55,169 nt of DNA from NCBI GenBank assembly GCA_903822005.1, contig CAIJNL010000030.1, positions 1-55,169 of the forward strand. The letters are read 5' to 3'. Below the pieces are notes generated by a model. That model had not been told where the DNA came from. It saw only the letters and a list, made by a program, of their open reading frames with translations, and made no database searches. Below, one piece after another: positions 16,252 to 55,085 of the stretch (position 1 is its first letter; each line of letters starts with the position of its first letter). The position numbers and the translations under genes are program-made. The DNA is from an uncultured Nitrospiraceae bacterium (GTDB lineage Bacteria > Nitrospirota > Thermodesulfovibrionia > Thermodesulfovibrionales > Dissulfurispiraceae).

Positions 16252-16303
16252 GACATTAGATAATGGCATATCTTCCATGGCCGTGTGAATTAAAAAACTG
16301 CTG

Positions 16304-24237: not shown

Positions 24238-24305
24238 TCCTACCTCCTATTTCGAACAAAGCCCAATATTCATCTGATTGCAGCCAAAACAGCACGGTCA
24301 TTTCA

Positions 24306-25094: not shown

Positions 25095-25501
25095 GACTTC
25101 TTCTCCTTTGGCTCTATATGACACTCCCAGCAGGTCGGCTTTACCTCTACGTAGGCGTGGCATTTATCGCAGAACTCCTCCTTGTTGGAGTGGCACTTCA
25201 TGCAGCCGTTCTGAAGGCTCTTGTCGTATTGCCTGCCGCTTACCAGCACAGGAGACCTGTCATCGTTGCGCACCACGGCATCTCTCCAGCTGTCGAGCAC
25301 CTTCATGTGCGTTGCCCTCATCTGCTCCCTGGGCGCGACGCATTTTTTGTCTTCAAGCTTGAGTATTTCGGGCGTGTCGATCCTGATGTCCGGTTTTTCG
25401 GCTGTCTTGCTCTTGCCCATATTGAAGATAAAAGGCGACGCGGCAAGAACCGCAAAGACCAACAGACCAATAAATATCTTTCCCCCGTTATATATCTTCA
25501 T
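25091..25501 (-). CDS. dsrJ: DsrJ, triheme cytochrome c
   Basis: A 136-residue protein anchored by an N-terminal membrane segment (about 8-27), with a periplasmic domain. Three CxxCH heme c sites cluster near the C terminus: CMKCH, CDKCH and CWECH, which matches DsrJ. An additional Cys (KKCVAPREQMRATHM) sits about 45 residues upstream, where DsrJ proteins carry the unusual His/Cys-ligated heme. The ATG overlaps the dsrK stop by one base (TAATG). Its role is electron transfer or sulfur chemistry on the periplasmic face of DsrMKJOP. Confidence 0.95.
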   Translation of the reverse strand: MKIYNGGKIFIGLLVFAVLAASPFIFNMGKSKTAEKPDIRIDTPEILKLEDKKCVAPREQMRATHMKVLDSWRDAVVRNDDRSPVLVSGRQYDKSLQNGCMKCHSNKEEFCDKCHAYVEVKPTCWECHIEPKEKKS

Positions 25502-28117: not shown

Positions 28118-28121
28118 TTCT

Positions 28122-29914: not shown

Positions 29915-31099
29915 TTAGTTTACCTCCTCTTTCTTCCAGAATATATAAGGGTTGCTGCGGGGTGCACGCACCATCTGCGGCAGCGGCTTCAGGCCAATAG
30001 CATCGAGGAAATTCGCATATCCTAGACGGTCTATCAGTTCGCCTATGCGTTCGCGGTTCTTGCCGTTTTCAGCCCACCACTCGGTGATCTTCTCGAAAAG
30101 CTCTTTAAACTCGGTGTAAGGGGCCTCCATCTTGATAAAAGGAACAAGTATCCATCCTATCATCGAGCCTTTGACAACCGTGGCTTTTCCGCCTATGAGC
30201 AGGGTGGCCCCGCGCTCGCGGCCGATAGCTATGGCATCAGGCATCATATTGACGCAGTTCATGCAATGCACACAGTCTTCCGCAGAAACTGTAAGTTCTT
30301 TCTTGACGAGGTCATAGTTCAGGGCTTCGCTCGGGCATTTGCGTACTACACGATTGATGATGTCGTAGCCGCCGTCAACCATCTTGCGGACTTCCTTGTT
30401 GTCTATACGGATGCTGTCGCGCCATACTCCGATGACGGCCAGGTCTGAACGGGCCGATGCCGCGGCGCAGTCATTGGGGCATCCCGATACTTTTATCTTG
30501 AATTTATATGCCCACGCAGGCCTGTGTATCTCAGCCTGATACTTTTGAGTCAGGTCGCGAATGATGTCCATGCTGTCAATGCATGCCTTCTCGCAGCGTG
30601 CCTGTCCCACACAACATGCAAGACTGCGCAGGCAGCCACCCGATCCGCCAAGGTCAAAACCTACTTCAGAAAGCTCATCAACACAGGGCTGCAGGTTAGC
30701 CGTGGTCGTCCCGAGGAGAATAATGTCTCCTGTTGAGCCATGCATGTTGTACAAGCCGCTGCCATATTTGTCCCAGACATCAGCCAGCTGACGGAGTTTT
30801 TTGGTGGTATAGAAGAAGCCTGCCGGCTGGCATACTCTCACGGTATGGAATTCCTTCACATCAGGATACTTGTCCGGAAGATCGCTATACCGGCCGACTA
30901 CACCGCCTCCATAACCCTTTACACCTACGATACCGCCATGCTTCCAATGTCCTATTTTCTCTCTGTAAGAAGTTTCGAGCTGCTCCAATAAGCCCTGAGC
31001 GCTTTTGTTCTTCTTGGCTGCCCGCTTAATCTCGGTAACAAAGCTCGGCCAGTCACCCTTTTCGAGCTCGTCTAACAACGGGGTCTTTGCATCATCCAT
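29915..31099 (-). CDS. dsrA: Dissimilatory sulfite reductase alpha subunit
   Basis: This 394-residue catalytic subunit carries the siroheme-[4Fe-4S] ligands as CX5C (Cys163-Cys169 in [13 protein letters not shown]) and CX3C (Cys207-Cys211 in SGCPNDC). A ferredoxin domain is ligated by Cys255, 276, 279 and 282 (KCPSEAL, CVHCMNC). MHGSTGDI and GRYSDLP are conserved DsrA stretches. A textbook site AAGGAGGTAAGG precedes the ATG. The gene follows a 60-residue ferredoxin after 26 bases, so the ferredoxin is likely co-transcribed and may deliver electrons to DsrAB. It is slightly shorter than many DsrA proteins, but no core motif is missing. Confidence 0.98.
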
Positions 31100-33433: not shown

Positions 33434-36010
33434 TCACCTTGAGACAGGCACTTCACCTATCTTGCGAATGAGTTGCTTTGCCTTGTATCGATTAAGCCAG
33501 GCCCCTACAGGACTGCCCGACCGGCCTGGGAATACAGAATCAGATTTCCATGGACCGCCAAAAATAAGGTCGAGTATATGGAGCGCCTTCTTGCCGCCCA
33601 TTATCATCGATTCCCTGCAGGCCGCGCAATAGGTCACCATCACATCAGACTTCACTTCAGCTGTCCTGCGCTCCATAACGCGTTTGGCGAGTTTGGGGTT
33701 TGCCGGAACGACCATCCCGCCAAAGCCACAGCATCTTGTCTCTTCCCTGGTGTGCGGCGGCTCCTCAACTGCGTACCCCATGGTGTTCATGATCTGCCGG
33801 ATTCCATCAAAGATCTCTGGAACATCGCGGGTCGGGCAAGAGTCATGTATGGCGATGGTAAGATCGGAGCCGGCGCCTCGTCCGACCGACAATGTGGGCA
33901 GGCCTATCTCAGGAAGGACCTCCCACAGGGAGCGCACGCGCTGCTTTGGACTGTACTGCTTCATGGTCACATAGCAGGATTGGCAGGCCACTATAATTTC
34001 CTCAGCGCCGACCCTGTCAATTTCCTTCTGCAGCTCCGCATAGCGTTCCTTGAAGGCCTCGACCTGTCCCAATGCCTTTGTCGGCTTGCCGCAGCATTTA
34101 AGAATGGCCCCGGTACCGGGAAGGCGGTCTCTGAGATGGGACAGTATATTCCCGACAAGCGCGGGATTATATGACGGCAAACTGCACCCTGGTATAAATA
34201 CCCGCTTTGCCTTGCCATCGCCATTGCCCGATATTGTGGTATTGAAGAAACTCGAAAATCCGAGGGCCTGGTGAACATCGATGACCTTATGCCCTTTTAT
34301 CGGTGATTTGCCTTTATTCTCCTTCACCATCTGAATGCGCATATCCATGAATCTGTCCATCATCATGAACTCTTTGGGGCAGACCAGGGTGCATTGTTTG
34401 CACATGTTGCAGGAATATGGTATTAAAGGATCCGCATTCCCCTTCTCAAGTATGTTACGGAAGAGCTCTCCAGGGCAGGTAGTGAAGTCATTGAGCATCT
34501 CGCACTCTGCCATGCATTCCTTGCACTCACACTTGAAACAGCGCGAGGCCTCCTGAACTGCGACGGCTTCTTCGAACCCGAGATCAACCTCCGCAAAAGA
34601 GAGCAGCCTGTCCTTAACAGGAATCATGGCCGTACGCAATCTGGGCAGGTTGGTTTCTTTCGGATCTATTGTAGTTTCGAGCTTCGTCTCGTAACTGCCC
34701 TCGAGATCCCTACCGGAGAAGAGGTCCCTGTCTGTCAGGTAGCGGTCTATGGATTCAGCCGCCCGTCGCCCTTCCGCCATTGCTTCTATCGCTATAACAG
34801 ACCTGCCGGTGGCATCGCCGCAGGCGAAGATGTTCTCAATACATGTCTGCAGCGAAACCGGATTGACAGTGAATCGGCCGCCGGCGTGCTGGGGAATGAT
34901 ACCTCTTGGTATGCATGAACCGTCCACCAGCTGGCCAATCGCGAATATGACCGTGTCCACATCCTCGAAAACTTCGGTGACGCTGTCATCAAACCTCGGA
35001 CAGAATTCACCGAGCGGATCGAACACTGATTTGCAGGCCCTTGCCCTAAACCCTGTGACTTTGCCGTCCCGGCCAAGTATCTCGACCGGTCCGCGGCCAT
35101 TATGTATTGTTATGCCCTCAGCCTCGGCGTCTTCAACCTCCCAGGTGTGCGCCGGCATCTCTTCACGGCTTTCGAGGCAGAACATATGCACGTCAACCGC
35201 TCCCAGGCGTCTTGCTGTCCTGGCGGCGTCAATTGCCACGCATCCGCCACCTACAACAACAATTTTTTTGCCGATATCGGATCTCTGGTTCAGGGTCACC
35301 TCTCTCAGGAACCTGGCGGCGCTGACCACGCCACTCAGTTCCTTGCCCGGAATCGGAAGCATGTTACCTTTCTGGGCGCCTATCGCGACGAGCACAACAT
35401 CATACTCGGCCCGCAGGTCCTCAAAATATACATCCTTGCCTATCTCCAGCCCGAGTTTGAACTCGATACCAAGTTTGTAGAGCAGGCTGTATTCCTTGTC
35501 TATAATCCTTGCTGGCAGGCGGTACTCCGGAATGCCGACCCTGAGCATGCCGCCCACAATATTGAGCCGGTCATATATGGTAACCTTGTAACCTTTTCGC
35601 CTGAGATCAAGTGCGGCCTGAGCGCCGGACGGACCAGCCCCTATTATGGCAATATGCTGGGGCTTTTCTTCCGCAATTGAAAGATCCCAGTCTTCCTCAT
35701 TATCATAATTGTCCGCAACGAATCTCTTGAGCGCCGCGATCGATAAGGGATTTTTAAGTTCATTACGCTTGCATTTGTCCTCACATGGGTGTGGGCATAT
35801 CCTGCCGAGCACACCCGGCAGAAACAGGGTTTCCCTGACCCTGGAGAGGGCTTCTTTAAACCTGCCTTCACTGATCAGTCCGGTGTAGCCTTTTGCATCA
35901 GTATGCATGGGACAGGTGGCAACGCAATAAGCCGCTGCCTCTCCCATGCAGCCGTCTGCTATCTCCTTCATCTTGTCAAGGACTGTTGATGTAGTACTAT
36001 TGTCTTCCAT
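33434..36010 (-). CDS. GltD-like NAD(P)H flavoprotein fused to an HdrD-like CCG module
   Basis: An 858-residue cytosolic fusion. Residues 15-90 hold an N-terminal [4Fe-4S] domain (CVATCPMHTD, CPHPCEDKCKR) as in GltD/DsrL/PreT. Residues 115-450 are the two-domain flavoprotein (FAD: IAIIGAGPSGAQAA; NAD(P)H: VVVGGGCVAIDAARTA; FACGDATGRS). Residues 490-550 carry further Cys motifs (CFKCECKECMAEC, CNMCKQCTLVCP). Residues 600-830 are two CCG domains (PGCSLPSYNP, CCGKPT, CQSCY, HDSCPTRD, CCGFGG, CAACRE). It could oxidise NAD(P)H and reduce a disulfide, trisulfide or ferredoxin, possibly with electron confurcation. DsrL shares the first two-thirds but has no CCG module. It lies just upstream of the rhodanese gene. 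The partner is not known. Confidence 0.88.
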   Translation of the reverse strand: MEDNSTTSTVLDKMKEIADGCMGEAAAYCVATCPMHTDAKGYTGLISEGRFKEALSRVRETLFLPGVLGRICPHPCEDKCKRNELKNPLSIAALKRFVADNYDNEEDWDLSIAEEKPQHIAIIGAGPSGAQAALDLRRKGYKVTIYDRLNIVGGMLRVGIPEYRLPARIIDKEYSLLYKLGIEFKLGLEIGKDVYFEDLRAEYDVVLVAIGAQKGNMLPIPGKELSGVVSAARFLREVTLNQRSDIGKKIVVVGGGCVAIDAARTARRLGAVDVHMFCLESREEMPAHTWEVEDAEAEGITIHNGRGPVEILGRDGKVTGFRARACKSVFDPLGEFCPRFDDSVTEVFEDVDTVIFAIGQLVDGSCIPRGIIPQHAGGRFTVNPVSLQTCIENIFACGDATGRSVIAIEAMAEGRRAAESIDRYLTDRDLFSGRDLEGSYETKLETTIDPKETNLPRLRTAMIPVKDRLLSFAEVDLGFEEAVAVQEASRCFKCECKECMAECEMLNDFTTCPGELFRNILEKGNADPLIPYSCNMCKQCTLVCPKEFMMMDRFMDMRIQMVKENKGKSPIKGHKVIDVHQALGFSSFFNTTISGNGDGKAKRVFIPGCSLPSYNPALVGNILSHLRDRLPGTGAILKCCGKPTKALGQVEAFKERYAELQKEIDRVGAEEIIVACQSCYVTMKQYSPKQRVRSLWEVLPEIGLPTLSVGRGAGSDLTIAIHDSCPTRDVPEIFDGIRQIMNTMGYAVEEPPHTREETRCCGFGGMVVPANPKLAKRVMERRTAEVKSDVMVTYCAACRESMIMGGKKALHILDLIFGGPWKSDSVFPGRSGSPVGAWLNRYKAKQLIRKIGEVPVSR

Positions 36011-42600: not shown

Positions 42601-43582
42601 GCATTATCTGGCGCACCGCGAACTTGCCATCCTTGTCTACGGGCACCGGCAGCCCGAGCGCCTTTACCTTATACCCTTTTGGCACTTTTTTACCGTCGAC
42701 CGTGATAGTACCTCCCCGTACAGGGATGTTGCCCACAACCCGGCTGTTCTCGCCATACCCGATAAGAGATTCGCGTTCAGGACTCTCCTCATCCTTCATT
42801 GGAGTGCGGTTAGCGACGAATTTCAGTTCTTTTGGAGAAGTCTCATCGAACCTGCCCTTTTCATCGTATACACGCAGCAGATAATAGATGGTCTCCGGTG
42901 TGCCTGCCGGGGGAGACCATACAACGCGCTCATTGATATTGACCTGTACTGTGGCAATCGGGGCCTGCTGAATCGTCTTGCCCTTTTCGAATATCCTTAT
43001 CTCGGCCTTGCGTACCCAGAGCGCATAGTTCGAATAGGTGAAAAAGCGGACTTTCGCAGCCTTCTGCGCCGCATTTGGAGTAGTCCAGACATTTAATGCA
43101 GGGCGCACCACGAGCGGATCATAATAGACCCGTATGTCCGCTTTTTCGAGTGCCACATCAACGCAGCGCTGCCGGTCCGCCTCTCCGCGGCCCGATTTCT
43201 CGGCGTCGAGCGGCACCCCGTCGATGGTAACACGCATCGGCATATATTCGGGCTTCTGATTCGGACCGCACGAAAGCTCTGTCTTCCCTGGTGCAACGGG
43301 CTTGACAGCAGTTGCATTGCCCTTCACATCACTTGGCACTCTGACCGGCATCTCCTTCTCCGAACTCGGCGGGGTCTTGAGACATCCGCTGCACTCGGTT
43401 GTGCTGTGGTCAAAGATCTTGCCGCGTATTCTTGCTGAACGCTCTCTTTCATCGATCTGTTGAACGGATTCAGTGCTGAAGACCGCGTCGCCTGCAAAGA
43501 GCCCGCAGGGCAAGCTGATCGTACATGCCGTAAACAGAACTGCTTTCCCGAAGACCCTGAGACTGCGGCATTTATTTGTCAT
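39638..43582 (-). CDS. Large outer-membrane beta-barrel protein paired with the giant repeat protein
   Basis: A 1,314-residue protein with a signal peptide (about 1-30, LFAGDAVF). An N-terminal periplasmic part of about 400 residues includes ECSGC and Ig/carboxypeptidase-like segments (VRGGTITVDGKKVPKGYKV, RNISIPDNDFFFVGLIDIT). A porin-like region with many alternating beta strands then runs to the end (GVFVNAIGAF, terminal Phe as in outer-membrane proteins). Residues 850-915 form a Lys/Gln/Ala-rich disordered insert (KKNVPQTSAGGNKAQPQEKD), probably an external or periplasmic loop. Its start overlaps the previous gene by 11 bases with GAGGTG as ribosome binding site, so the two proteins are made together and probably form one surface complex. 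No TonB box or plug domain is evident. Confidence 0.82.
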   Translation of the reverse strand: MTNKCRSLRVFGKAVLFTACTISLPCGLFAGDAVFSTESVQQIDERERSARIRGKIFDHSTTECSGCLKTPPSSEKEMPVRVPSDVKGNATAVKPVAPGKTELSCGPNQKPEYMPMRVTIDGVPLDAEKSGRGEADRQRCVDVALEKADIRVYYDPLVVRPALNVWTTPNAAQKAAKVRFFTYSNYALWVRKAEIRIFEKGKTIQQAPIATVQVNINERVVWSPPAGTPETIYYLLRVYDEKGRFDETSPKELKFVANRTPMKDEESPERESLIGYGENSRVVGNIPVRGGTITVDGKKVPKGYKVKALGLPVPVDKDGKFAVRQIMPAGPHSVEVLLRDEKDNGASFRRNISIPDNDFFFVGLIDITAGYRSTSGQANIVTQDSDNYSKKEYIDGRGAFYLKGKIKGEYIITASADTREQPVQNLFRNLDSKDPQYLLRNIDPNRYYPVYGDDSTITDDAPTQGKFYVKLEKGDSYVMWGNFKTQWTGTELTQYSRGLYGLNVMIKPDSTTQFGERTTQINAFAAEPGTIASREEFRGTGGSLYYLRNMDITQGSERVWVEVRDKDSGFAIERNQLAPAQDYEINYLQGRIVLRSPLPSTADGSTLVMTSMLNGNPVYMVVTYEFVPGMTALSDLAYGLRGTQWVGDYLRLGLTGYQQGEEAARQRLYGTDLMLRYKPGTWVKGEFARSEGPGTTTLTSITGGFDFNQQQGRNGKANAYRVEGAIDLSEIWSREKGRLTAYWQNREAGFSAPGQVAFSNEATEQIGGSAQISLTKTTTLVAKLDWRDSASQTYSAGELNVKQQITDEVSVSVGARIDERTTRIANASPLLSDNGARTDAIFRVDYRPVIKKAQVPAGAAKANSSEASTDQAAADKKNVPQTSAGGNKAQPQEKDKTTVKQKDGEVKKTDDAKMPDLVYAPWNIYGFVQETLTRTGNRPENDRYGIGGGWQITPRLKAGAEISTGDGGLGGKLLGDYKIDDRSNVYMTYTNETDRPDMQFRGRIGSLVLGSGYKISKEVRLYDEVKSVNGAGPDSLVNTFGIDYAPTDRWTFGFKGEMGTISDPLAGDLKRKAGGLSVAYKFDKTKYASALEYRDESGTNGHRSTWLMKNAFGLQLDPSWRVLTKLNFSFSDASQGAFYDANYLEFVIGAAVRPVRNDKLNALLKYTYFMNEPSPSQVSSGGLIVDYAQRSHVFSVDAIYDLLPWLSIGVKYGLRIGELSQPKVSDTWYSSVADLMVGRIDLHFIKEWSGIVEVRRLTVYEAHDSRSGVLVGLYRQITKNLKIGAGYNFTNFSDNLTDLSYRSRGVFVNAIGAF

Positions 43583-46500
43583 GACCGATCACCTCTTCTT
43601 CACACGTGAGAGGGTAACGGCCCTTGCGGCTCTTCCATGCATCTTCGAGTATGCGTCGAACGGCCCGCATCCTGTCGTTAACCAGAGCGGGCGGTTCTTT
43701 GCCGGCCCTGTATGCGATCCTCGCAACTGTGGGCCTGTCTTCCATCTTTTTGTCCAGACCACGCACCTTTGCTTCCCACTGTTTCAGTAGTTTGGCCGAG
43801 CCCTGTTCGAACGCGGCATCGGTCAGTTCAATGCGGAAAACGCGATGCACTGCCGCTCCAAAGTTCATTTTTACCATCTTGCCGCGCGTGATCCTGACAG
43901 TCAAAGGATTCTCCGTAGTTATGCGATAGCCCGACGGCAGGGTCCTCTCATCGAGTTTGAGCAGGAAGTTTGAACCGCGGTCCGCGTTCGGGATCTCCGG
44001 ACATGGTATGTGGAAGCGGCCTTCGGAATCCGTTGTAATCAAAAGACCTCTTACTGTAGCGAGCCTCACATTTGCAATACCCGGTTCGCCTTCGTCCTGG
44101 TAGCCGTTGCTGTTTTTATCATCGAATACCTTGCCGATAATGTCCGGACAGTCGAAAGTCGTGTCAGGAATGACCCTTACCGTGGCCTTGGCTATATTGG
44201 ATACCATCGCGTTGGCTATGTAGTTGAGCGCCCAGGCCTGGTTGGTATATTCCCCCTCTGTAACGCCCGATCCGACAACAAGAATCATCCTGAAGATCTT
44301 CTTTTCGCCTGCGGCAAAGGTAAGATTGCTCCATGTCATGGTCCTGCCCGTGATCGCCGGCTCAGCCGCGACGCCATTTAGGTTTGCGCTGCCGGTGCGG
44401 TATCTGAAACCGGGCGGTATGATATCGACAAGATTGATATTCGGAATCTGGGCTGAGAGTGTGTTTGTGGCCTCTATGGTATATGGAACCAGATCGCCCC
44501 GCGTAACATTGATCAGGGGCGTCCTCTTGATAACTATAATCGCGCCGCCCAGTATCGGATCAACGGGTATGTGGTTGTTCACCACGCTTGCCGTGGATGC
44601 GCTCATTGTAAAACTGAGATAATATGTCGTGGGCTGTGCCCCGCTTGGCGCTGTTGCCTGGGTCTGTACGGCATACGTCGGCCCGCCCGGCACCGTAAAA
44701 GGTCCGCTGGTTGCCGGTATTATGCCTGAAGGCCCCTGCACATACCCGATTGGCGGAGTAACGCTTATGGCATACACGCCTGCTGGCGCACCGGCCAGCA
44801 GCAGGTACTGGTAGAACCCGTCAGAACTTGTCACCTGTGTTGCGTTCGCCACTCCTCCGAGAAGTTGAGTCGCGGGATTAAAGCCGCCCGGTCCTGTAAG
44901 CCTGACCGTTGCGCCGCTGACCGGCAGCCTGGTGACCGCGTCGTAGACCACGCCGGAGGGATCAACCGGCAAGTTCTGATTGATCACGTTGCCGCCTGAA
45001 CGCAATACCATATTTGCTATGGTCCTGGCGCTGTAATCCGGCGTCGAGTCCGTATAGCCTGGATCCTGCGACACCGGCGTCCCATAAAGAGCGCTGTTGG
45101 ATGTGTGACGGAAGCGCAGCTCATAGCCGCTGCCGGACGGCAGACCTGAAATCGTCCATGTGCCGTCGGCCGCAGTAGTAGCAGTGCCCAATACCGCATT
45201 GCCCTGCACAGCCTCAACACGCCAATTCAGCAGCCCGGGTTCGCCCGGCTGCCTGGTCTGATCACGGGTAATACTGTTGTACCAGACTGTGCCGCTAAAA
45301 CTTCCCGTCAGACCTGTCCTCTCACCAAACAGGTAGCCTGTGCCCGCGGTGGCTATGGGCAATGTAATGGAGCTTATGCGGTTTTGGGCGGCTGCAGAGG
45401 TAAAGCTGGCATTATCTACAGTACCGGGAGGATTTCCGGGAGATTCACGGCCATCCTGATAGATGATCGGCTGGGTTTCCGTCAGGGTATAAACACCGCT
45501 GTTCAATCCAATGAACTGATAACTTCCGTCCGCCGCCGTTGTGGTGGTACGGTTAGCGGACCCTGAGAGGGTAATGGTCACACCGGCTATTCCGCTTTCT
45601 CCTCCATCCATGCTGCCGTTATCATTGACATCATGATAAACGAAGCCTCTCAGGCTGGAGGCGTTTTCCCGGAAGTTGTAGTTGATACCGCTCGTCCCTG
45701 AGCTCACTACGATTCCAGTAACCTGGTTCAGGGCGGCCGTGCCCGTCGGTGTTCCATTAACTGTGCCAATCTGAGTGCCCGAGTTTCCGGGATAGTCGCC
45801 AATGCCCGCCGGCTGGGATTCCGTGAGAGTGTATCCCGCAGCATTAGAAGGACGCAAGCCCGTGAAAGAATACGTGCCGTTAGCAATCGTCGCAGTGCTC
45901 AGGCTAACTGCAGCCCCCTGATCATCGGTGCCCGTCAGCGTAATGGTAACACCAGGCAGCTCTTCTCCTGCGTCATAGCTGTTGTTGTTGTTGAAATCAT
46001 GGTATACCCTGCCGCTGATGCCGCCTGACAGCACTTCGCCGAAGTTGAAAGCTGCAAAAGCACTGGCGGCATTAAAAGGAATGGCGCTGATCACATTGGC
46101 AACAGTGGTATTGCACCCGGCGCAGGCAACCCCGTTGACAGTGCCTTTTGATAATTTGCCATCTAGATAGGCTGATGGCTGGGTCTCGGTGATGCTATAC
46201 CCGGAACCGTTGGCGTTACGAAGACCGGCAAAGTTGTAACTGCCGTCCCCAATGGTTGTTGTTGTACAACTGGGAATTGTTGCGCAGATATTGGAGCCCG
46301 AAGCCGTAGTGCCGGCTGTGGTTGTACGGTCGGCATAATCAACGGGTTGGGACTCGGTGAGTGTATAGCCCGCTCCATTACTGGCAGGCAGTCCGGTAAA
46401 GCTGAAGCCGCCGTCCGCTGCCGTGGTAACCGAGCAGGCCGGATATACGCCGGCCATAACCGTACATACATTGGCGCCACTCGAGGTAATACCGGAGAGG

Positions 46501-49500
46501 GCAATGGTCACCCCTGCAATGCCTGCATCGATTCCGCTGTTGTATGCTCCGTTATTGTTTACATCAAGGTAGACGCGACCGCTGATAGAGCCGCCCTGCT
46601 CACCGAAAAGATAATCCGAACCGACCTGACCTGTTGCGATAACAATTCCGGTGATTACATCATTGCCCGCATTGCCGGTCGGAATTCCCGCAACCGTTCC
46701 GCGGCTGTCTATACCGTCGGTGTAGTTGGTCAGGGGTGCGATAGCCTGGGACTGCTCAGTCAGAGTATAGCCGGATGCGTCACTGGCAGGAATATTCACA
46801 AAGCTGAATGCGCCGCTCGAATCAGTGACGACATTACAGCTGGCAATATACCCGCAGACGGAACCGCCAGCCAGGGCGGTCCCTGAAAGCGTAACCGTTA
46901 CGCCGGGAATGCCCGGCTCTAATGGGTCCTTTAATCCATTGTTGTTCAGGTCCACATATACAAAGCCGCCGAGCACCGTTCCCTGATGACCAAAGTTATA
47001 GTTCTGCAAAGAACCGTTTGACAGTATGGCAATAGTCTGCACATACTGGGTGAGGACATCGCTGCCTGCTGTGCCGGCAGGAGAACCTGAACCGGTGCCA
47101 ACCTGCGCACCGGTATGGGTAAGTCCGGCGGGTTTTGTTTCTGTGACGCTATATGTGCCGGGCAGCAGATTTGTGAAACTATAGCCACCACCCGCGCCGG
47201 TCGTAGTAGTCGTTGGTCCGACTGTTGCACTCAGATAATCCGTACCTGTCAGGGTAATCGTAGCCCCGGGAACGCCGACAGTTTCACCTGCATTCTTCGA
47301 CCCGTTTCCATTGGTATCAATATAGGAATAGCCGGAAATGCTTGCATAGCGCTCCTCTCCAAAATTGTAATTGCTTGCAACGCTGCCGAACACGAGTACA
47401 AGATTCTGCACCTGATTGACTGTAGGGCCGCCTGCAACCAGGTTGCCGGCAGCTGACCCGCTGCCGGTAACAGTGCCGACACTCGTTCTGCCGGGCTGGT
47501 ATGCACCCGGCTGGGTTTCAGTAACGGTATATGTTCCGGAACGCAGGCCGGAGAATTTATAGCTGCCCGTGACACCGCCCAGGGTACTGGTGGTAGTAGT
47601 ACGATTGACTGCTCCCAGATCGTCTGTCCCGGTAAGAGTAATTGTAACTCCGTTGATTCCGGTATCACTGCCATTGATAATGCCGTCGCCGTTCAGGTCC
47701 TCGAACACCCTGCCGGAAAGTGTCGCCTCGGGCAACTCGCCGAAATTGTAATTGATACCGTCTATATGCGCTCCCAGCGCGATGGCAGAAATAGAGGATG
47801 GAGTGACCGCAACAACGGTCGGAGTGCCGCCTTCGCTGCCTGCTATTGTCTTGCCGTTAACGGTGTTGGCCGGCTGGTTTGGTTGGGTAATGGCATATGA
47901 GCCTTCCGGCAGGCCGGAAAACTTGTAGCTGCCGCTGACACTGCTCAGTGTACTGGTGGTAGTGGTAAGATTGATTGCCTGGCCGTCCCAGGCCGGTCCG
48001 GACAACGTTATGGTGACTGAGTTGATGCCGGTCTCTGCCCCGTTAATGGTTCCGTCATTGTCACTATCGGTCCAGACCCGGCCGGCCAGACTGGAGGAAT
48101 AGACCGTGATGGTTCCGCTTTTAATATTGTTGTTCGTTCCCAACGTGGCTGAATTTATGTCGAGGGAGGTGGTGGCAATGGTCGCCGTGTTCGTAAAAGA
48201 ATCACTTCCGCTGCTGGGGGTAGTAACAGCGGTTACCCGAACGGGTACGGTGATGGTCCCTGTGGCCCCGCTCGAAACTGTGCCCAACGAACAGGCAAAG
48301 CTTATGCTGCCCGCCGCGCCGGTGCATGTTGTTAGCGAAAAACTTCCGCCCGTAACAGCGACGGTCGGCGTTGCCGTCAGCTCCATATTGGCAGGCAAAC
48401 TATCGGTAACGGTTACGTTATCGGCCTCGGCCAGTCCCGCCCCGCCGTTGTTGCGTACCGCAATCTTCCATATAAACGGACGCCGCAGACCGATCGTAGG
48501 TATATCCGTTGTATCACCGCTATCTCGCGCTGTTTTAGAGACCACTTCAGGATCTGCCTTGGTTCGCACAGTGGTATCCTCGGTCACCGTATTGTTACCA
48601 GGAATAGGATCGTAGCTTGCATTTGCGCGAGTCTCTGCAGAAGATACCGTCACAGTGTTGTTGGTTATACCCTTTGCAGCGCCTGTCATTATTATCGTGA
48701 CTTGTTTATTGGTGCCTGAGGTGAGATCGCCCAAAGAGCAGGTCACCGTGCCGCCGGAAGATCCCACTGTCCCGCCGGAACAACTTCCCCCTGCGGGCGG
48801 CGTGGCGCTGACAAAGGTCAGTTTGCTGGTCGGCAGCGTATCCACAATCTGCACATCGGTGGCATAAGACGGGCCGTTATTAGTAGCTCTGATCGTATAG
48901 GTTACATTGTCGTTAACGGCCACCGGATCGGGACTGTCGGTCTTGTTAACCAGCAAGTCATGGGACGGAGCGGTAAGTGTCGTGGTGGTTGATGCACTAT
49001 TATTACCGCTGTCCGTTTCTGTCGTGGAGGTACTCACTGCCGCATCGGCCTGGATTATTCCGGGAAACGCGGTCATGGTAGGCCGGACGACAATAGTCAC
49101 AGTCTGGGTCGTTGTATTGCCCGGAGAAGGCAGCGGCAATGTACCCAGATTGCAAATAACAGTCTTATTCCCCGTTGTGGTCAACGTTCCAACAGTCGGG
49201 GTCGTTGAGCAGCTTCCGGCAGATGGGCTGGATGAAAGAAAGGTTACACCATCCGGAAGCGTAACAGTCGCAGTGACATTATCCGCTGCGCTTACTCCCC
49301 GGTTGATAGCAGTCGCCACATATGTCAGACTCGCGCCAACCTGTACCGGGTCAGGGTTGTCAGTAATAGTTACCGTTACATCACTGCGCTGATCGACAGT
49401 TGAACTGACTGTGTTGCTGGTATTGTTAGAGATATTCGGATCGGCAACATCTGCAGAAAAGACGGCAGCACTATTGGTGCGCGGGGTGGTGCCGTTGGGC

Positions 49501-51680
49501 CGCACCTGCACCGTTACAACTGGACAGTCAACGTTTTCAGTACAGGCAGCAATACCCGTAAAGGTACAGGTAAGTGCGCGCCCGTTGTTGCCTGACGTTG
49601 ACGAACTGCAACTGCCGCCGACCGACGTTCCGGCCGTTGTGATTGCAGCGCTCTCCAGTCCATGGTTTGCGCCAGACTGGTTATCGATCAAGTTGGTCAG
49701 TGTATCAGTAAGAGTAATATTGGTGGAAGTCACTCCTGCCGTCAGGTTGACAATCTGCAGGGTATAGGTTAACAGGTCACCGGCAGTAACCGTGCCGCTC
49801 ACGGTCTTGACAAGCTTGAGATCGGCGGAACTGGCATTTGGCTGGGAGATCACTGTCGATCCGGAGCCGTCATTTCCAGGATTACTGTCTGCCGGGGTTC
49901 CGACAGAATTGGTGCTGTTGGCTGTGTTATTCAGGGTACCGGCACCGGTGGCTGTAACGTTAAGCTCAAGGTAAGAGGTTGTTGCCCCATTGTTCAGGAC
50001 TGTCCCTGCGGCTGTGGTGCAGTTTATAGTGGCTGGTCCCGTGACTGGAACAGCCGGGCTGCATGACCAGTATCCGCCTGTCTGGTTGGTATAGGAGTTG
50101 ACCGTGACATTTGCGGGCAGACTGTCGGTAAGCTGCAGAATACCCGTAAAGGCAGATGGTCCTCCGTTTGTTATGGACATCCGCCATTTGAAATTGTCTC
50201 CCACCACGACAAGGGCGGGTGAGAGAGCGGTGTTATCGGTGCGCAGGGCACTCTTGTTAGCGTGCAGATCGGCTGCCGCTGCCACGACCGTGGTGCTCAA
50301 GGATGCGCTGTTATTTGCCGGGTTGGGATCACTTGCCGCGCTGCCGACGCTGACAGTGTTAGTATAGCTGCCGACCGTGTCGGCACGCACCGGCACTGTA
50401 ATGGCCGGCATCGCCACACTGTTGCCCGCTGCTGCTCCGCCGCTGGCGCGGCTGCAGCTGACATTCTGCCCACTGGTAGCAGAACAGTCCCATCCGGTAC
50501 CGGATGGAGAGGCTATCACCGTAATTCCCGTTGGCACACTGTCGGTCACAGTGATGTTGCCGGGCACTTCACCAGTGTAGCGCGGGGTCAGGGTATAGTT
50601 GAAGGTCGTTCCGGTAGTGACCGGGTTGCCGACGCTCTGGCTTTTTGAAATAAAAACATCACTGCCGGCTGTCACCGTAGTATTAAGAGTGGCTGTGTTG
50701 TTGCCGGAATCAGGGTCCTGAGGGGCCCCGGATGAGGTGATCGAAACACTGGCAGAGTTGGTGAGGGTGCTTCCGCCCGAAACTGAAATCCGGCCTGTTA
50801 TCGGCCCCACAACAAAGTTGCCTCCGCTTGCGATAGTCCCTGAAAGGTCACAAGTCACTGTCTGGCCTACTTGGGAACATCCGGAAGGAAGAGAGCCCGT
50901 TACATTGAAACCCGGAGGCAAAATATCCACCACTCGTACACTGCTTGCTGTATCAGGCCCGGCATTGCTGACGGTCAGGTTATAGTCAAGGGTTGCGCCT
51001 GACTGTACGCTGGGTGAAGGAGTGCTGCTTTTTGCTAGCGACAGATTGGCGCCCTGATTAACGGTGGTCTGCTCACTTTGGCTGTTGTTGCCCATGTCCG
51101 GGTCAATAAAGCCAGGGGCAGTGCTCGTTACACTCGCATAATTAGTGATTGTTCCCGCAATGGTAGTGCGCACCCGCACAGTAACCGTGGCACTCGCCGA
51201 CACCGCCAGCGAGCCGAGATCACAGGTAAAGGTGCCCCCGGCAACCGGCGCGGGCGTCAGGTTACAGCTGCCCTGACTGGGTATCGCTGAAACAAAAGTA
51301 ATGCCTGACGGCAGTGTATCCGACACCTGGATGCTATCAATCGTAGCAGCATCTCCGTTATTAGTGACCCTGATGGTGTAGTCCACCGTGCCGCCGGCGA
51401 CCACAGGGTCAGGGCTGTCGGTGTGATTTAAAACCAGATCATAGTCGTCGGCTAGAGCGATACTGCTGAATAGAAGCACCATGATTGACCCGCAACAGAC
51501 CATAAAGCGGGCCCGGCGCAGGCCACAGGCAGCGGCCGTAAAAAAGCGGCCAATAAATTGCCATGCGGCAGCTTTCAATCCGGAAAGATTTTGTCTAATA
51601 AAAACGGCCGGACGAGAAAAATATGTTTTCATCATCCGGCCGCTATATTCCTGTCCTGATTTATTGCAGTCTATAATCAT
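43572..51680 (-). CDS. Giant DUF11 / SdrD-B-like repeat surface protein with OmpA-like C terminus
   Basis: A 2,702-residue exported protein. The long N-terminal leader ends in a hydrophobic core (CGSIMVLLFSSIALA), with cleavage before DDYD near residue 76. Eight DUF11 repeats follow (about 79-1160; motif SPDPVxxGxxxxYTIxxxNNG). Then come about eight SdrD/Cna-B-like repeats (about 1190-2230), most opening with an EF-hand-like calcium loop (SDNDGTINGAETG, DLNGDGIINGSDTG, DVNDNGSMDGGESG), a carboxypeptidase-regulatory-like domain, a ninth DUF11 (about 2380), one more B-like unit (DDKNSNGYQDEGEPG) and an OmpA-like tail (about 2607-2702) that may bind peptidoglycan. It is likely a cell-surface adhesin or S-layer-like fibre held by the barrel protein. 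Start codon is uncertain (51680 or 51635). One B repeat lacks its calcium loop (about 46170-46330). Confidence 0.85.
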   Translation of the reverse strand: MIIDCNKSGQEYSGRMMKTYFSRPAVFIRQNLSGLKAAAWQFIGRFFTAAACGLRRARFMVCCGSIMVLLFSSIALADDYDLVLNHTDSPDPVVAGGTVDYTIRVTNNGDAATIDSIQVSDTLPSGITFVSAIPSQGSCNLTPAPVAGGTFTCDLGSLAVSASATVTVRVRTTIAGTITNYASVTSTAPGFIDPDMGNNSQSEQTTVNQGANLSLAKSSTPSPSVQSGATLDYNLTVSNAGPDTASSVRVVDILPPGFNVTGSLPSGCSQVGQTVTCDLSGTIASGGNFVVGPITGRISVSGGSTLTNSASVSITSSGAPQDPDSGNNTATLNTTVTAGSDVFISKSQSVGNPVTTGTTFNYTLTPRYTGEVPGNITVTDSVPTGITVIASPSGTGWDCSATSGQNVSCSRASGGAAAGNSVAMPAITVPVRADTVGSYTNTVSVGSAASDPNPANNSASLSTTVVAAAADLHANKSALRTDNTALSPALVVVGDNFKWRMSITNGGPSAFTGILQLTDSLPANVTVNSYTNQTGGYWSCSPAVPVTGPATINCTTAAGTVLNNGATTSYLELNVTATGAGTLNNTANSTNSVGTPADSNPGNDGSGSTVISQPNASSADLKLVKTVSGTVTAGDLLTYTLQIVNLTAGVTSTNITLTDTLTNLIDNQSGANHGLESAAITTAGTSVGGSCSSSTSGNNGRALTCTFTGIAACTENVDCPVVTVQVRPNGTTPRTNSAAVFSADVADPNISNNTSNTVSSTVDQRSDVTVTITDNPDPVQVGASLTYVATAINRGVSAADNVTATVTLPDGVTFLSSSPSAGSCSTTPTVGTLTTTGNKTVICNLGTLPLPSPGNTTTQTVTIVVRPTMTAFPGIIQADAAVSTSTTETDSGNNSASTTTTLTAPSHDLLVNKTDSPDPVAVNDNVTYTIRATNNGPSYATDVQIVDTLPTSKLTFVSATPPAGGSCSGGTVGSSGGTVTCSLGDLTSGTNKQVTIIMTGAAKGITNNTVTVSSAETRANASYDPIPGNNTVTEDTTVRTKADPEVVSKTARDSGDTTDIPTIGLRRPFIWKIAVRNNGGAGLAEADNVTVTDSLPANMELTATPTVAVTGGSFSLTTCTGAAGSISFACSLGTVSSGATGTITVPVRVTAVTTPSSGSDSFTNTATIATTSLDINSATLGTNNNIKSGTITVYSSSLAGRVWTDSDNDGTINGAETGINSVTITLSGPAWDGQAINLTTTTSTLSSVSGSYKFSGLPEGSYAITQPNQPANTVNGKTIAGSEGGTPTVVAVTPSSISAIALGAHIDGINYNFGELPEATLSGRVFEDLNGDGIINGSDTGINGVTITLTGTDDLGAVNRTTTTSTLGGVTGSYKFSGLRSGTYTVTETQPGAYQPGRTSVGTVTGSGSAAGNLVAGGPTVNQVQNLVLVFGSVASNYNFGEERYASISGYSYIDTNGNGSKNAGETVGVPGATITLTGTDYLSATVGPTTTTTGAGGGYSFTNLLPGTYSVTETKPAGLTHTGAQVGTGSGSPAGTAGSDVLTQYVQTIAILSNGSLQNYNFGHQGTVLGGFVYVDLNNNGLKDPLEPGIPGVTVTLSGTALAGGSVCGYIASCNVVTDSSGAFSFVNIPASDASGYTLTEQSQAIAPLTNYTDGIDSRGTVAGIPTGNAGNDVITGIVIATGQVGSDYLFGEQGGSISGRVYLDVNNNGAYNSGIDAGIAGVTIALSGITSSGANVCTVMAGVYPACSVTTAADGGFSFTGLPASNGAGYTLTESQPVDYADRTTTAGTTASGSNICATIPSCTTTTIGDGSYNFAGLRNANGSGYSITETQPSAYLDGKLSKGTVNGVACAGCNTTVANVISAIPFNAASAFAAFNFGEVLSGGISGRVYHDFNNNNSYDAGEELPGVTITLTGTDDQGAAVSLSTATIANGTYSFTGLRPSNAAGYTLTESQPAGIGDYPGNSGTQIGTVNGTPTGTAALNQVTGIVVSSGTSGINYNFRENASSLRGFVYHDVNDNGSMDGGESGIAGVTITLSGSANRTTTTAADGSYQFIGLNSGVYTLTETQPIIYQDGRESPGNPPGTVDNASFTSAAAQNRISSITLPIATAGTGYLFGERTGLTGSFSGTVWYNSITRDQTRQPGEPGLLNWRVEAVQGNAVLGTATTAADGTWTISGLPSGSGYELRFRHTSNSALYGTPVSQDPGYTDSTPDYSARTIANMVLRSGGNVINQNLPVDPSGVVYDAVTRLPVSGATVRLTGPGGFNPATQLLGGVANATQVTSSDGFYQYLLLAGAPAGVYAISVTPPIGYVQGPSGIIPATSGPFTVPGGPTYAVQTQATAPSGAQPTTYYLSFTMSASTASVVNNHIPVDPILGGAIIVIKRTPLINVTRGDLVPYTIEATNTLSAQIPNINLVDIIPPGFRYRTGSANLNGVAAEPAITGRTMTWSNLTFAAGEKKIFRMILVVGSGVTEGEYTNQAWALNYIANAMVSNIAKATVRVIPDTTFDCPDIIGKVFDDKNSNGYQDEGEPGIANVRLATVRGLLITTDSEGRFHIPCPEIPNADRGSNFLLKLDERTLPSGYRITTENPLTVRITRGKMVKMNFGAAVHRVFRIELTDAAFEQGSAKLLKQWEAKVRGLDKKMEDRPTVARIAYRAGKEPPALVNDRMRAVRRILEDAWKSRKGRYPLTCEEEVIGHDK

Positions 51681-51955: not shown

Positions 51956-53326
51956 TTATGAAACTACTCTGTAACTGCCGGCCTCTGACAAGACGGTGCG
52001 TTCTTCCCTAAAAAATGAGAATGCGATTATTCCCAATAACAATCCGCAGGCCGGAATCATGAAGGCTGTTCTGTATGCGGCCGGGGAATATACTCCCGAA
52101 GACACTACAGGATATATGTTGATAACGGCTCCCATTGCGTATTGATAAAACGCGCCGCCCGAAAAGAGAAAGATGTTCAATGCCCCGACAGCTGTGCCCG
52201 CAAAGCGTGCCGAATAAATTTCTTTTACCCCTGCGAAGCATGAGACAAAAGCTCCTCCTGTCAGCCCATACAGGAAAAATAATATATAAAGGGCCTTTTC
52301 AGGCATTTCGGCAGGGAAAAATATCAGCGGAATGTAGCAGGCCAGGTGGGAGATACAGCCCCATAACAGGACATTTTTGCGGGACTTAAATACCTTGTCC
52401 GACATATAGCCTGCCAGTGGGCAGCCTATTACCATTCCAAGCGGAAACATCATAAGGACACTGCCAGCCGCCTGCTTGGACAATCCATAGATATCCTGCA
52501 GGTAAGGGCCGGCCCACAACGACCCGACCCCCATGAATGTTCCGTAATACGAAAACAACAGCAGGCCCATCAAATAAAATCTTCTGTTCCCAAACACTGT
52601 TCTTAATGCCTCTCCAAGGGAGACCTTGTCATCGGTCGTTGTCAGTGACGCTCCTATGCCTTCCGACGGAATTGAGAGGCCGAGTTCATGCGGTTTATTG
52701 CGAATGACGCTATATGATATTGCACTGGCAAGCAAGGTCAGTCCGGCGACCAAAATAAAAGAGTTTCGCCAGCCGATGTTCTCCATCAGGAGGACCAGTG
52801 GCATGGTCGATATTATCGCCCCGATATTTCCAACCGCCAAAAGAACACCTGAATATGTGGCCATCTCATTCGGTCTGTACCAGTCTGCCAGAATACGCAT
52901 TGCGGCAACATAAACCACCCCGACCCCCAAACCGATAATAAAGCGCCCCAGCGCCATAACGGGCGCGCCCGGGGCAAGCGCAAAGACGACCCCGCCAATG
53001 CCTGCCAGGAAAACAAAAGCTGTTATCGTTTTGCGCGCTCCCCATGTATCCGCTAATACACCCGCAGGCAGGGCTGTTGCAGCGTAGGCCCAAAAGTACA
53101 TCGACCCGATAAGCCCGAGCGCTGCAGGCTCCAGTGAAAGTTCTTTCATTATTTCCGGCCCTACAACAGCAGGTGCAGCCCTGTGAAAATAGGACACAAG
53201 ATATGTTGCGGAAATGGAGAGGAAAATCCAAAGTCTGTATCGCTTCATTTTACTTATTAAAGAGTTCTCTTCTGTCACATCACACTCCAGGTTCATTAGC
53301 TCTGTAAGCTTCTTCTTGTTCCGCAC
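51956..53326 (-). CDS. Major facilitator superfamily anion/organic-acid transporter
   Basis: A 456-residue inner-membrane protein with twelve predicted helices. MFS signatures: LADTWGARKT in the first loop (GxLaDrxGrr/k type), SYFHRAAPAVVGPEIMKEL before it, RFIIGLGVGVVYVAAMRILADWY, and CPLAGYMSDKVFKSRK in the mirrored loop. The opening resembles hexuronate/phthalate/glucarate and related acid symporters. It sits 20 bases downstream of the UxaA-family pair in the same operon, so it probably imports their substrate (sugar acid or sulfolactate). The start may be GTG 53326 or ATG 53296; residues before KMKRYRLWIFL are not membrane-spanning. Confidence 0.85.
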   Translation of the reverse strand: MRNKKKLTELMNLECDVTEENSLISKMKRYRLWIFLSISATYLVSYFHRAAPAVVGPEIMKELSLEPAALGLIGSMYFWAYAATALPAGVLADTWGARKTITAFVFLAGIGGVVFALAPGAPVMALGRFIIGLGVGVVYVAAMRILADWYRPNEMATYSGVLLAVGNIGAIISTMPLVLLMENIGWRNSFILVAGLTLLASAISYSVIRNKPHELGLSIPSEGIGASLTTTDDKVSLGEALRTVFGNRRFYLMGLLLFSYYGTFMGVGSLWAGPYLQDIYGLSKQAAGSVLMMFPLGMVIGCPLAGYMSDKVFKSRKNVLLWGCISHLACYIPLIFFPAEMPEKALYILFFLYGLTGGAFVSCFAGVKEIYSARFAGTAVGALNIFLFSGGAFYQYAMGAVINIYPVVSSGVYSPAAYRTAFMIPACGLLLGIIAFSFFREERTVLSEAGSYRVVS

Positions 53327-53346
53327 ACCCGACGACCTTACTCTTG

Positions 53347-54501
53347 TCAGGATGATGGGTATAGTCTTGTCAGCGCGAACTCATCATGCTTAAGCACCTC
53401 AGTTGCCGTATACCGCCCCCGGGCCGTTTTGACAATGCAGTCCATGATTTTGTCGCCTGCCTGCTCCAATGTTAATTCACGACTCATCACACCGCTGACA
53501 TCGACATCAAGGTTTTCAGGCACCAGTTTGCAGATTTTCGGATTCGCGCAGATTTTGACGACGGGTGTGATCGGGTTGCCGACATTATTGCCCTTGCCTG
53601 TTGTAAATACGGTCATGGCTGCGCCGGCTGCTGCCATTGCTGTCACCAGATCGGCTGCTGCTGAAGAGGTGTTCATGAAGTATAGTCCCGGCCCTGCGGG
53701 TTCTTCGCATGTATCCAGAATGCCTACTATTGGTGATTTGCCGAGTTTCTGGACATTGCCAAGGGCCTTTTCTTCAATCGTAGAAATGCCGCCGGCGATA
53801 TTGCCCTGGTTAGGCTGCGATCCGAGCAGGTCCTCGCCTTTCGAGAAGATCAGGTCCAGATAATCCTTATGTATTTTCAGAAACTGCTCGCCCAGCTCTT
53901 TTGTTGCGAAATGTTTGACAAGGATATGCTCTGCCCCCGTTATTTCCGGGGTCTCTCCGAACATGACGGTTGATCCCATCTTTATCAGCCGGTCGCATAC
54001 TACTCCGGCCGCCGGATTGCTCGCAAGGCCTGACGTCGTATCCGACTCACCGCACTTGTAACCGATAACAAGTTCTTTCAGATCAGCCTCGACCTTTTCG
54101 AGTGCAGTTGCATAATGAACGTACTCCGCTGCCTTTCGCGCGGCCCTTTCAATCGTTTTCAGGTCGCCGTTTTCATCGCTCCAGTAATAGGAAACCGGTT
54201 TGCCCGTTTTTGCAATCCCGTCTGCAATTTTTTTGGTCCAGTTTGGCTCAATGCCAACTACAATTACAGCTGCAACATTCGGATTGCAGCCTGTACCGAT
54301 CAATGTCCTGAAGTGAAGGTCCAGGTCAGCTCCAAATTGCATGCGGCCGTACGGATGTGTGATAAAAGTAGTTCCGGCCACTATGTTTGTAACTGCGCGG
54401 CAAATAGGATAGGAGACGGCATCCAGCGGCAAAAGCAATACATGATTACGTATTCCGATGCGGTCATTTTCACGACGATATCCCAGTATCTTAGTTGTCA
54501 T
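53347..54501 (-). CDS. UxaA-family dehydratase/lyase large subunit, possible sulfolactate sulfo-lyase SuyB
   Basis: A 384-residue catalytic subunit of the altronate/galactarate dehydratase family. Seen: RENDRIGIRNHVLLLP, HPYGRMQFGADLDLHFRTLIGTGCNPN, YKCGESDTTSGLASNP, GNIAGGISTIEEKALGN, TTGKGNNVGNPITPVVKICAN and DVSGVM. In E. coli altronate dehydratase, as I remember it, the loop reads HTYGC with a metal-binding Cys. Here it is HPYGR, which argues against plain altronate dehydratase. Split small/large subunits and the QFGADLxLHFRTLIGTGCNPN stretch recall SuyB, which cleaves (2R)-sulfolactate to pyruvate and sulfite. ATG 54501 is preceded by GAGGTGG and starts two bases after the small-subunit stop. 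Other sugar-acid dehydratase activity remains possible. Confidence 0.82.
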   Translation of the reverse strand: MTTKILGYRRENDRIGIRNHVLLLPLDAVSYPICRAVTNIVAGTTFITHPYGRMQFGADLDLHFRTLIGTGCNPNVAAVIVVGIEPNWTKKIADGIAKTGKPVSYYWSDENGDLKTIERAARKAAEYVHYATALEKVEADLKELVIGYKCGESDTTSGLASNPAAGVVCDRLIKMGSTVMFGETPEITGAEHILVKHFATKELGEQFLKIHKDYLDLIFSKGEDLLGSQPNQGNIAGGISTIEEKALGNVQKLGKSPIVGILDTCEEPAGPGLYFMNTSSAAADLVTAMAAAGAAMTVFTTGKGNNVGNPITPVVKICANPKICKLVPENLDVDVSGVMSRELTLEQAGDKIMDCIVKTARGRYTATEVLKHDEFALTRLYPSS

Positions 54502-54503
54502 TT

Positions 54504-54785
54504 CTACCACCTCGCGCTCTTTATGTTGTGAATATGCACCCAGTCACCTGCATTGATGTCCTGGGTCGCCTTGCCGATTATTTCTGCATATTCATATGCA
54601 TATTCGCCAGTTTTTATCGACTTCAAGGCAATCTTGTGGCCAAGTTTGATGTCATGATTTGACTTGATCGTTGTTTCCCCATTGCTGTCCAGGTAAACTC
54701 CTACTGCTTTTTCTTCTGCCGAGATATCCTGGACGGCCACCCCTACGTTGTCTTCATGCCCGTGGACTAAAAATTTGTGATTCAT
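54504..54785 (-). CDS. UxaA-family small subunit (SAF domain), possible SuyA
   Basis: A 93-residue SAF-domain protein, the separate N-terminal module of the UxaA family. MNHKFLVHGHEDNVGVAVQDI, KLGHKIALKSI and the end DWVHIHNIKSARW match that module. In altronate dehydratase of enterobacteria it is fused to the large subunit; here it is a separate gene, as in SuyAB and in some other split enzymes. CAGGAGGAGG precedes the ATG. It is the first gene of the operon with the large subunit and the MFS transporter. Confidence 0.85.
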   Translation of the reverse strand: MNHKFLVHGHEDNVGVAVQDISAEEKAVGVYLDSNGETTIKSNHDIKLGHKIALKSIKTGEYAYEYAEIIGKATQDINAGDWVHIHNIKSARW

Positions 54786-54911
54786 TCTGCCTCCTCCTGA
54801 GAATATTTATTAAAACAGAGTCCAATGCTTTAACCATGCAAATGAGCGATCAACAATGGCATTCTGGCATTCCATGCAGATCTCCGATATACTCCTGATG
54901 ACAATCAACCC

Positions 54912-55085
54912 CTATTTTACCGCCGCGCTTAATCCACGTATATGCTCTTGCATCGCAACCCCGGTCAGGGCAACGTTCTGGTCTTTTATCGCCCGAAATA
55001 TCTCTTTATGCTGACTGAGCGCAATATCTGTCACGTCCCAGGTATTTGGTACCAGTTCAATCCCAGGTAATGGAGACCACCATTG
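54912..55085 (-). pseudogene. C-terminal remnant of a GntR/FCD-family regulator
   Basis: A frame of 57 codons open from a TAA (55086-55088) to TAG. It reads ...VTDIALSQHKEIFRAIKD, QNVALTGVAMQEHIRGLSAAVK, which is the end of an FCD ligand-binding domain (the usual QHxxIxxAIxxxDxxxAxxxMxxHI pattern). The DNA-binding and most of the effector domain are missing, and upstream sequence is AT-rich and unrelated. FCD regulators normally control sugar-acid and sulfonate operons, so this was probably the local regulator of the transporter-lyase genes downstream. Confidence 0.7.

Follow-up and report, generated by a model that had tools for sequence, protein, structure and literature searches.

A candidate sulfolactate sulfo-lyase gene set near dsr genes in a Nitrospirota genome with an apparent loss of sulfate-use genes

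Genes of the dsr type are often taken as a sign of sulfate reduction, although sulfite derived from organosulfonates can also feed dsr-bearing microbes that are unable to use sulfate. Which of these applies is the question raised by a stretch of DNA of 55,169 nucleotides from an uncultured Nitrospiraceae bacterium (Nitrospirota; Dissulfurispiraceae; assembly GCA_903822005.1, contig CAIJNL010000030.1), hereafter the window. The window is contig C30 of the host genome (G000; 3.23 Mb in 48 contigs). It contains a dsr locus and, at its right end, three intact genes for a transporter and for proteins resembling the two subunits of sulfolactate sulfo-lyase (SuyAB). We consider it reasonably probable, judging from the sequences, that the products of the three genes are an importer and the two subunits of an (R)-sulfolactate sulfo-lyase, and that sulfite from this reaction, not sulfate, is respired via Dsr. 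The gene content of the host fits respiration of organosulfonates, or of other sulfite-yielding compounds, better than sulfate respiration.

All genes of the set are on the minus strand. The large subunit (53347-54501, with ATG at 54501; 384 amino acids) has the domains GD_AH_second (E 6.4e-31) and GD_AH_C (E 5.2e-86), and is a candidate beta subunit of (R)-sulfolactate sulfo-lyase on the basis of trees, residue patterns and an AlphaFold model. The small subunit (54504-54785; 93 amino acids) has a SAF domain (PF08666, E 1.3e-7). Both UxaA-type subunits are intact and are encoded in separate open reading frames (ORFs), as the original prediction stated. It had also pointed to HPYGR in place of the HTYGC motif, and the window indeed reads HPYGR in the same columns in which E. 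coli K-12 UxaA reads HTYGC. The predicted transporter is an MFS protein (51956-53326; 456 amino acids; MFS_1, E 1.7e-51) and a candidate sulfolactate importer. The GntR/FCD remnant described with it (about 54912-55028) is real but short: approximately 34 C-terminal residues match the regulators that accompany the same genes in three Sporomusaceae genomes, with alignment scores of 80, 83 and 86 (the highest of 300 base shuffles was 47). A Desulfosporosinus regulator scored 37 against the remnant, below the shuffle maximum. The GC content of this end is within the range of the remaining contig.

With Pfam and NCBIfam models, the large subunit can be placed no more narrowly than in its broad family (galactarate dehydratase model, 149 bits against a cut-off of 730.85). 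A tblastn search of 72,556 plasmid records matched 315 of them; among the 60 listed, 13 rows had 51-56% identity and the next had 39% or less. We opened four of these 13. Two are in sulfonate-type loci, from Cupriavidus pinatubonensis (hpsN and hpsO annotated nearby) and Paracoccus versutus (a sulfate exporter family gene nearby). The Rhodococcus koreensis match has dehydrogenases and an MFS gene nearby, and that from Sinorhizobium mexicanum had no annotation. Genome contigs yielded at least 591 confirmed relatives, of which the best 80 comprise Sporomusa silvacetica at 87% identity, three Desulfosporosinus at 68-69%, and 76 others at 53-57%.

For phylogenetic analysis, 113 phmmer hits gave 100 distinct rows plus the window, and 99 rows remained after removal of two fragments (L014_6438 and L127_2866). 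In the 99-row tree the window falls inside a SuyB clade of 87 rows, and the 12 other family members lie beyond a stem of 1.58 (Shimodaira-Hasegawa-like approximate likelihood ratio test, 100). A more careful tree of 42 of these rows places the window inside a SuyB clade of 34 rows (support 100/100, stem 2.03). Here the window groups with three Sporomusaceae (100/100) and then with three Desulfosporosinus (96/90). The divergent subgroup to which the window belongs, with the Sporomusaceae and, further out, the Desulfosporosinus, is sister to the other 80 rows in the 99-row tree (support 83); the 42-row tree leaves the deepest branching order within SuyB unsettled. In neither tree does the window protein group with E. 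coli UxaA or GarD. It is 51.3-57.3% identical to the 80 canonical SuyB rows (C. pinatubonensis 54.2%, P. versutus 54.3%, a Desulfovibrio 54.2%) and 28.5-40.3% identical to the 12 other members (E. coli UxaA and GarD, 28.5%). Thus, the proposed SuyAB-like identity withstood a clustering test against altronate, galactarate and other sugar-acid dehydratases: the protein is in the SuyB clade with full support and shares its pattern of cysteine loss. By sequence it is a member of the SuyAB family and probably a sulfolactate lyase.

Residue patterns point in the same direction. R53 is present in 87 of 87 SuyB-clade rows, and 10 of the 12 other members have Cys in that column. R53, K149, E152, N249, S279, S280, N305 and others are found in all 87 rows and in two or fewer of the 12 (K149 in two). 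The window protein has all 17 listed SuyB signature residues, a list derived from the 87 rows with the four-row subgroup included. We suggest R53 and K149 as candidate sulfonate contacts, because most other members carry Cys and Glu or Gln at these positions. Four cysteines are conserved in UxaA/GarD enzymes, sulfolactate sulfo-lyase being named as the exception in part of the text of PMC6336799. The corresponding columns are occupied in 8, 10, 10 and 12 of the 12 other members, and the window retains C150 alone, having lost three of four, as have 80 of 80 canonical SuyB rows. The host encodes three further UxaA/GarD-family members, on contigs C10, C25 and C14 (L007, L008 and L009); those on C10 and C25 have all four cysteines and, by eye, LarA-like neighbours, and the C14 sequence is blank at one of these columns. 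Among the 12, the rows of Haladaptatus and Variovorax also lack three of the four. In the AlphaFold model of the large subunit (mean predicted local distance difference test score 88.5) the closest fold found with VIA-align is GarD (6u7l_A; Z 38.9, 335 residues, 27% identity). Folds ranking below it, starting at Z 7.9, were not accepted as relatives.

What would become of the sulfite? Genes for a proposed sink are in the dsr locus (14808-36010), where those for DsrAB, DsrMKJOP, siroheme synthesis, a second DsrK-like protein with its neighbour and a CoA-disulfide-reductase-like enzyme are on the minus strand. DsrA (29915-31099) and DsrB (28849-29913) score 545.6 and 462.9 bits against cut-offs of 392.85 and 341.5, and DsrM, DsrK, DsrJ, DsrO and DsrP of the membrane complex (23068-28177) each exceed their NCBIfam cut-offs. 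The locus also includes genes for siroheme synthesis, with a CysG N-terminal part (14808-15473; over the TIGR01470 cut-off) and a uroporphyrinogen-III methyltransferase (15475-16320; over the TIGR01469 cut-off). In the DsrA tree, the host sequence takes the reductive side, together with Desulfovibrio, Desulfosporosinus and relatives in the Nitrospirota. On the opposite side are seven rows of Thioalkalivibrio, Magnetovibrio and other Pseudomonadota (100/100), which we take to be oxidative types.

The dsr locus is mixed in its affinities. DsrM, K, J, O and P resemble the proteins of two other Nitrospirota genomes, G004 and G281 (DsrK is 78% and 75% identical, respectively). A second DsrK-like protein (DsrK2; 18115-19731; 309 bits, below the DsrK cut-off of 400), its neighbour (19728-20666) and a CoA-disulfide-reductase-like enzyme (16304-17983) match Desulfosporosinus dsr loci instead, at 57%, at 36-37%, and at 42% (L225) or over 120 residues at 31% (L224), respectively. 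Good matches to these three proteins were confined to the two Desulfosporosinus loci, with none in the longer stretches compared from around the dsr genes of G004, G281 and G001, although the comparison with G001 says little because its contig also lacks DsrMKJOP. DsrA groups with Desulfosporosinus at modest support (86/83), and DsrB does not favour any one source (56-59% to four of the five dsr loci compared, 52% to that of G001). A YeiH-like protein in the locus (21167-22528) was considered as SuyZ and rejected (21% identity, E 0.019). The locus also encodes an 858-amino-acid protein (33434-36010) with Fer4_20, pyridine nucleotide oxidoreductase and CCG domains that had no match in the five dsr loci.

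The genes needed to use sulfate tell a different part of the story. A whole-genome search of the host gave no match for Sat and no AprA over the cut-off (best 49 bits, cut-off 642). Both are present in G001 (same genus), G004 (same family) and G281, in the order adk-sat-aprB-aprA-qmoA-qmoB-qmoC-hppA (L184, L185 and L186); in G281, three additional ORFs separate aprA from qmoA. In G004, the identities of adk, aprB, qmoC and the pyrophosphatase are backed by scores over curated cut-offs. The names of qmoA and qmoB, which match HdrA models below cut-off, come from position and likeness. On host contig C4 (L167, 12708-16182), rdgB, adk and hppA are consecutive, with approximately 120 bases from adk to hppA. 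Thus, the sat-aprBA-qmoABC block is missing from the site itself. A relocated block is improbable, because the whole-genome searches for Sat and AprA would have met it. The host seems to have lost its genes for sulfate use, and because these are missing it would respire sulfite derived from organosulfonates rather than sulfate.

In the proposed pathway, the MFS protein would import sulfolactate, and SuyB, together with SuyA, would abstract the proton at C2 with loss of sulfite from C3, leaving pyruvate. Pyruvate would serve as carbon and electron source, and DsrAB and DsrMKJOP, encoded approximately 20-30 kb from suyAB, would reduce the sulfite to sulfide. The original prediction that the gene set could feed sulfite to Dsr is strengthened by the lack of Sat, the lack of AprA over the cut-off and the closed adk-hppA site; the coupling of the two systems is still a matter of inference.

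Since DsrA and SuyB both lean to the Bacillota, we considered whether the window is a misbinned Sporomusa- or Desulfosporosinus-like contig. Three 20-kb slices of the window have tetranucleotide signatures that correlate at 0.68-0.70 with 24 stretches of the host (median among the host's own stretches, 0.70), versus 0.37-0.52 with the Bacillota loci, and we rejected misbinning. Shorter slices correlate less with the host (0.56 at 7.5 kb), and the 3.5-kb gene set alone, at 0.32, is too short to judge. Canonical-type SuyB is also encoded in G004 and G281, with adjoining ComC-like and SlcC-like genes, so that sulfolactate use in the phylum does not depend on the window alone. A search of 295 Nitrospirota genomes (E 1e-60) matched three, the host, G281 (56%, SuyB level) and G039 (41%, another family member). 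A search of 60 genomes of relatives matched four, the host, G004 (56%, SuyB level), G039 and, as a fragment, G018. G001, of the same genus, had no SuyB match.

The mixed dsr locus and SuyAB both point to Bacillota. The small subunit is 69% identical to that of Sporomusa, 59% to that of Desulfosporosinus and 49% to that of G004, and the MFS protein is 70-71% identical to that of the same gene set in Sporomusaceae. The window SuyB differs from the Sporomusa copy at 0.10, 0.08 and 0.62 of first, second and third codon positions (nonsynonymous divergence, dN, 0.088; synonymous divergence saturated); suyA, suyB and the MFS gene are under purifying selection. Because third positions are saturated, the exchange of SuyAB was not recent. 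A tentative scenario, which we regard as possible but less than even, is a change within a Nitrospirota lineage from respiring sulfate to respiring organosulfonates. The lineage would have lost sat-aprBA-qmoABC and kept its native DsrMKJOP. Its gains would be a DsrAB of Bacillota type, a second DsrMK-like pair, the CoA-disulfide-reductase-like enzyme, and a SuyAB variant, likewise of Bacillota type, that has an MFS importer of its own; the kept and the gained genes are now together in 55 kb. The sulfonate accepted by this variant may be one different from sulfolactate.

Several observations weigh against sulfolactate respiration. The window's subgroup is separate from the Cupriavidus, Paracoccus and Desulfovibrio rows, and 39 of the 184 columns conserved in 70 core SuyB rows are altered in all four subgroup rows (41-44 per row). 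In Sporomusaceae, the enolase-superfamily genes beside suyAB resemble sugar-acid dehydratases. The MFS protein of the C. pinatubonensis hps locus gave no match to that of the window at E 1e-3. The regulator is truncated, near the contig end. DsrD was not found in the host genome. Of four Nitrospirota genomes, G001 alone has it (24.6 bits, cut-off 24.2), and G004 and G281 also lack it, yet have Sat and AprA. A scan of window ORFs found no SlcC- or ComC-like gene. Both Ldh_2 genes of the host are on other contigs, and the one scanned scores 297 bits against the sulfolactate dehydrogenase cut-off of 500 (the ComC-like protein of G004 is also below it, at 289). The seven host matches to the SlcC query each have 41% identity or less.

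Without an adjacent SlcC- or ComC-like gene, use would, judging from the locus, be limited to the (R) enantiomer. We compared 82 SuyB loci, 22 of them shorter than 12 kb, so that counts of neighbours are lower bounds. ComC-like genes are present at at least 37 and SlcC-like genes at at least 33. In Desulfosporosinus, a ComC-like (Ldh_2) gene adjoins suyB at L023, and a LarA-type gene directly follows it at L021 (9328-10626) and L022 (9300-10595). The L021 gene passes the cut-off for the LarAH5 nickel-dependent malate racemase. LarA homologs are present at at least 11 of the 82 loci. The LarA-type gene is a candidate sulfolactate racemase that may replace SlcC and ComC. A 421-amino-acid ORF of G281 (L119, 7201-8466), between ComC-like and SuyB genes, fuses an SlcC-like dehydrogenase to a SuyA-like domain. 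It is followed, by eye, by genes resembling fumarase and fumarate reductase subunits.

The alternative that survives best, although we think it rather unlikely, is a lyase derived from SuyB with a shifted substrate. The reaction would still be a beta-elimination, with a 2-hydroxy acid as substrate that may be a longer sulfo-acid or a different sulfonate. In Sporomusaceae such a pathway would include enolase-superfamily dehydratases and a D-2-hydroxyacid dehydrogenase. It draws on the 39 changed columns and the enolase-like neighbours. The changes include D28A, N31Y, H297T, Q303K and H330N, and the four-row subgroup has a long stem (0.43 in the 99-row tree, 0.35 in the 42-row tree). At the same 184 columns, ten other deep rows alter 4-29 each, Desulfosporosinus 20-27. 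The Sporomusaceae loci (L124, L125 and L126) combine suyAB with one or two enolase-superfamily genes, further MFS genes, a D-2-hydroxyacid dehydrogenase and a cupin. Two of the enolases were scanned, and had galactonate dehydratase as top model, below cut-off. Among the 82 loci, enolase-like genes are found at all three Sporomusaceae loci and at one other (L096), that of the archaeon Metallosphaera yellowstonensis, with a gene of the SuyB clade. Homologs of the window's MFS protein above 150 bits are found at three of the 82 loci, each from Sporomusaceae. However, all 17 signature residues are kept, and the changed columns show no enrichment next to positions that are signature (Fisher p 0.50) or family-invariant (p 1.0), so that we rejected clustering of changes there. 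The Desulfosporosinus sisters have canonical residues at most of these columns, one of them with the ComC-like gene beside suyB, and the 3.5-kb gene set of the window includes no enolase. We know of no characterised member of the window's subgroup.

It is much less likely that the window encodes an ordinary sugar-acid dehydratase of the altronate or galactarate type with split subunits. The broad-family model matches and the sugar-acid-like neighbours in Sporomusaceae would suit such an enzyme, but the SuyB stem separates the window from all 12 other family members, and three of the four cysteines, all kept by the host paralogs on C10 and C25, are absent. We rejected it on the trees and the cysteine pattern. 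Least probable of all is a decaying or idle acquisition, a SuyAB enzyme without a part in respiration: the truncated regulator, the lack of a racemase at the locus and the lack of a match in G001 are outweighed by three ORFs without stops, divergence dominated by third positions with a low dN, and a host that lost sulfate activation while keeping Dsr.

With the sulfate-activation block absent from an otherwise intact syntenic site, and a sulfonate-lyase set present, the genome leads to a prediction that can be tested, a change of electron acceptor in which an organic sulfur compound may take the place of sulfate in the host's respiration. Such a change would be in a phylum for which our full-text search of open-licence literature found no report of sulfolactate or suyAB. 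The window likewise brings out a divergent subgroup of SuyB, and the substrate of these enzymes merits testing. Elsewhere in the window we identified a possible surface protein of 2702 amino acids (43572-51680), made up of DUF11 and SdrD_B repeats, and consecutive genes for an RHS-repeat protein, an IS256 transposase and a beta-propeller/choice-of-anchor repeat protein (1120-9798).

Respiration via SuyAB and Dsr without Sat is already known from Taurinivorans muris. As described in the relevant part of PMC10507020, T. muris LT0009 lacks Sat and QmoAB, keeps AprAB, respires sulfolactate via SuyAB and Dsr, and does not grow on external sulfite. The window's host resembles it in combining SuyAB and Dsr without Sat and QmoAB. 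It differs in that the window locus has no racemase, and has an MFS protein, where that part of the paper names TTT or TRAP importers for T. muris. In Desulfovibrio sp. DF1, SuyAB yields pyruvate and sulfite, and the sulfite passes to Dsr, as predicted for the window; DF1, however, begins at 2,3-dihydroxypropane-1-sulfonate, through DhpA and SlaB (PMC6278857, in part). The metagenome-assembled genomes of Acidobacteria SbA4 and SbA5 have suyAB and, by gene content, sulfite reduction only, according to a portion of PMC6018796. The window shares with characterised SuyAB the separate SAF small and GD_AH large subunits, membership in the SuyB clade, R53 and other clade residues, and the missing dehydratase cysteines. 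It belongs to a divergent subgroup, and its 51-57% identity to canonical rows is below the 70% used in the survey given with DF1 (PMC6278857, in part). For Sporomusa and sulfolactate, the main text of the matching open-licence literature holds no SuyAB. Three of 12 genomes of the S. silvacetica family (E 1e-90) carry the subgroup SuyB. Unlike the window's host, these three have no DsrA over the cut-off; they have AsrC, and enolase-like neighbours of suyAB; we did not accept AsrC as evidence of sulfite use, since it is over the cut-off in 10 of the 12 genomes, including these three, and is not diagnostic. Nevertheless, their GntR-SuyA-SuyB-MFS set (L020/L126, L124 and L125) is the one that the window resembles, with SuyB 83-87% and MFS 70-71% identical and a homologous regulator.

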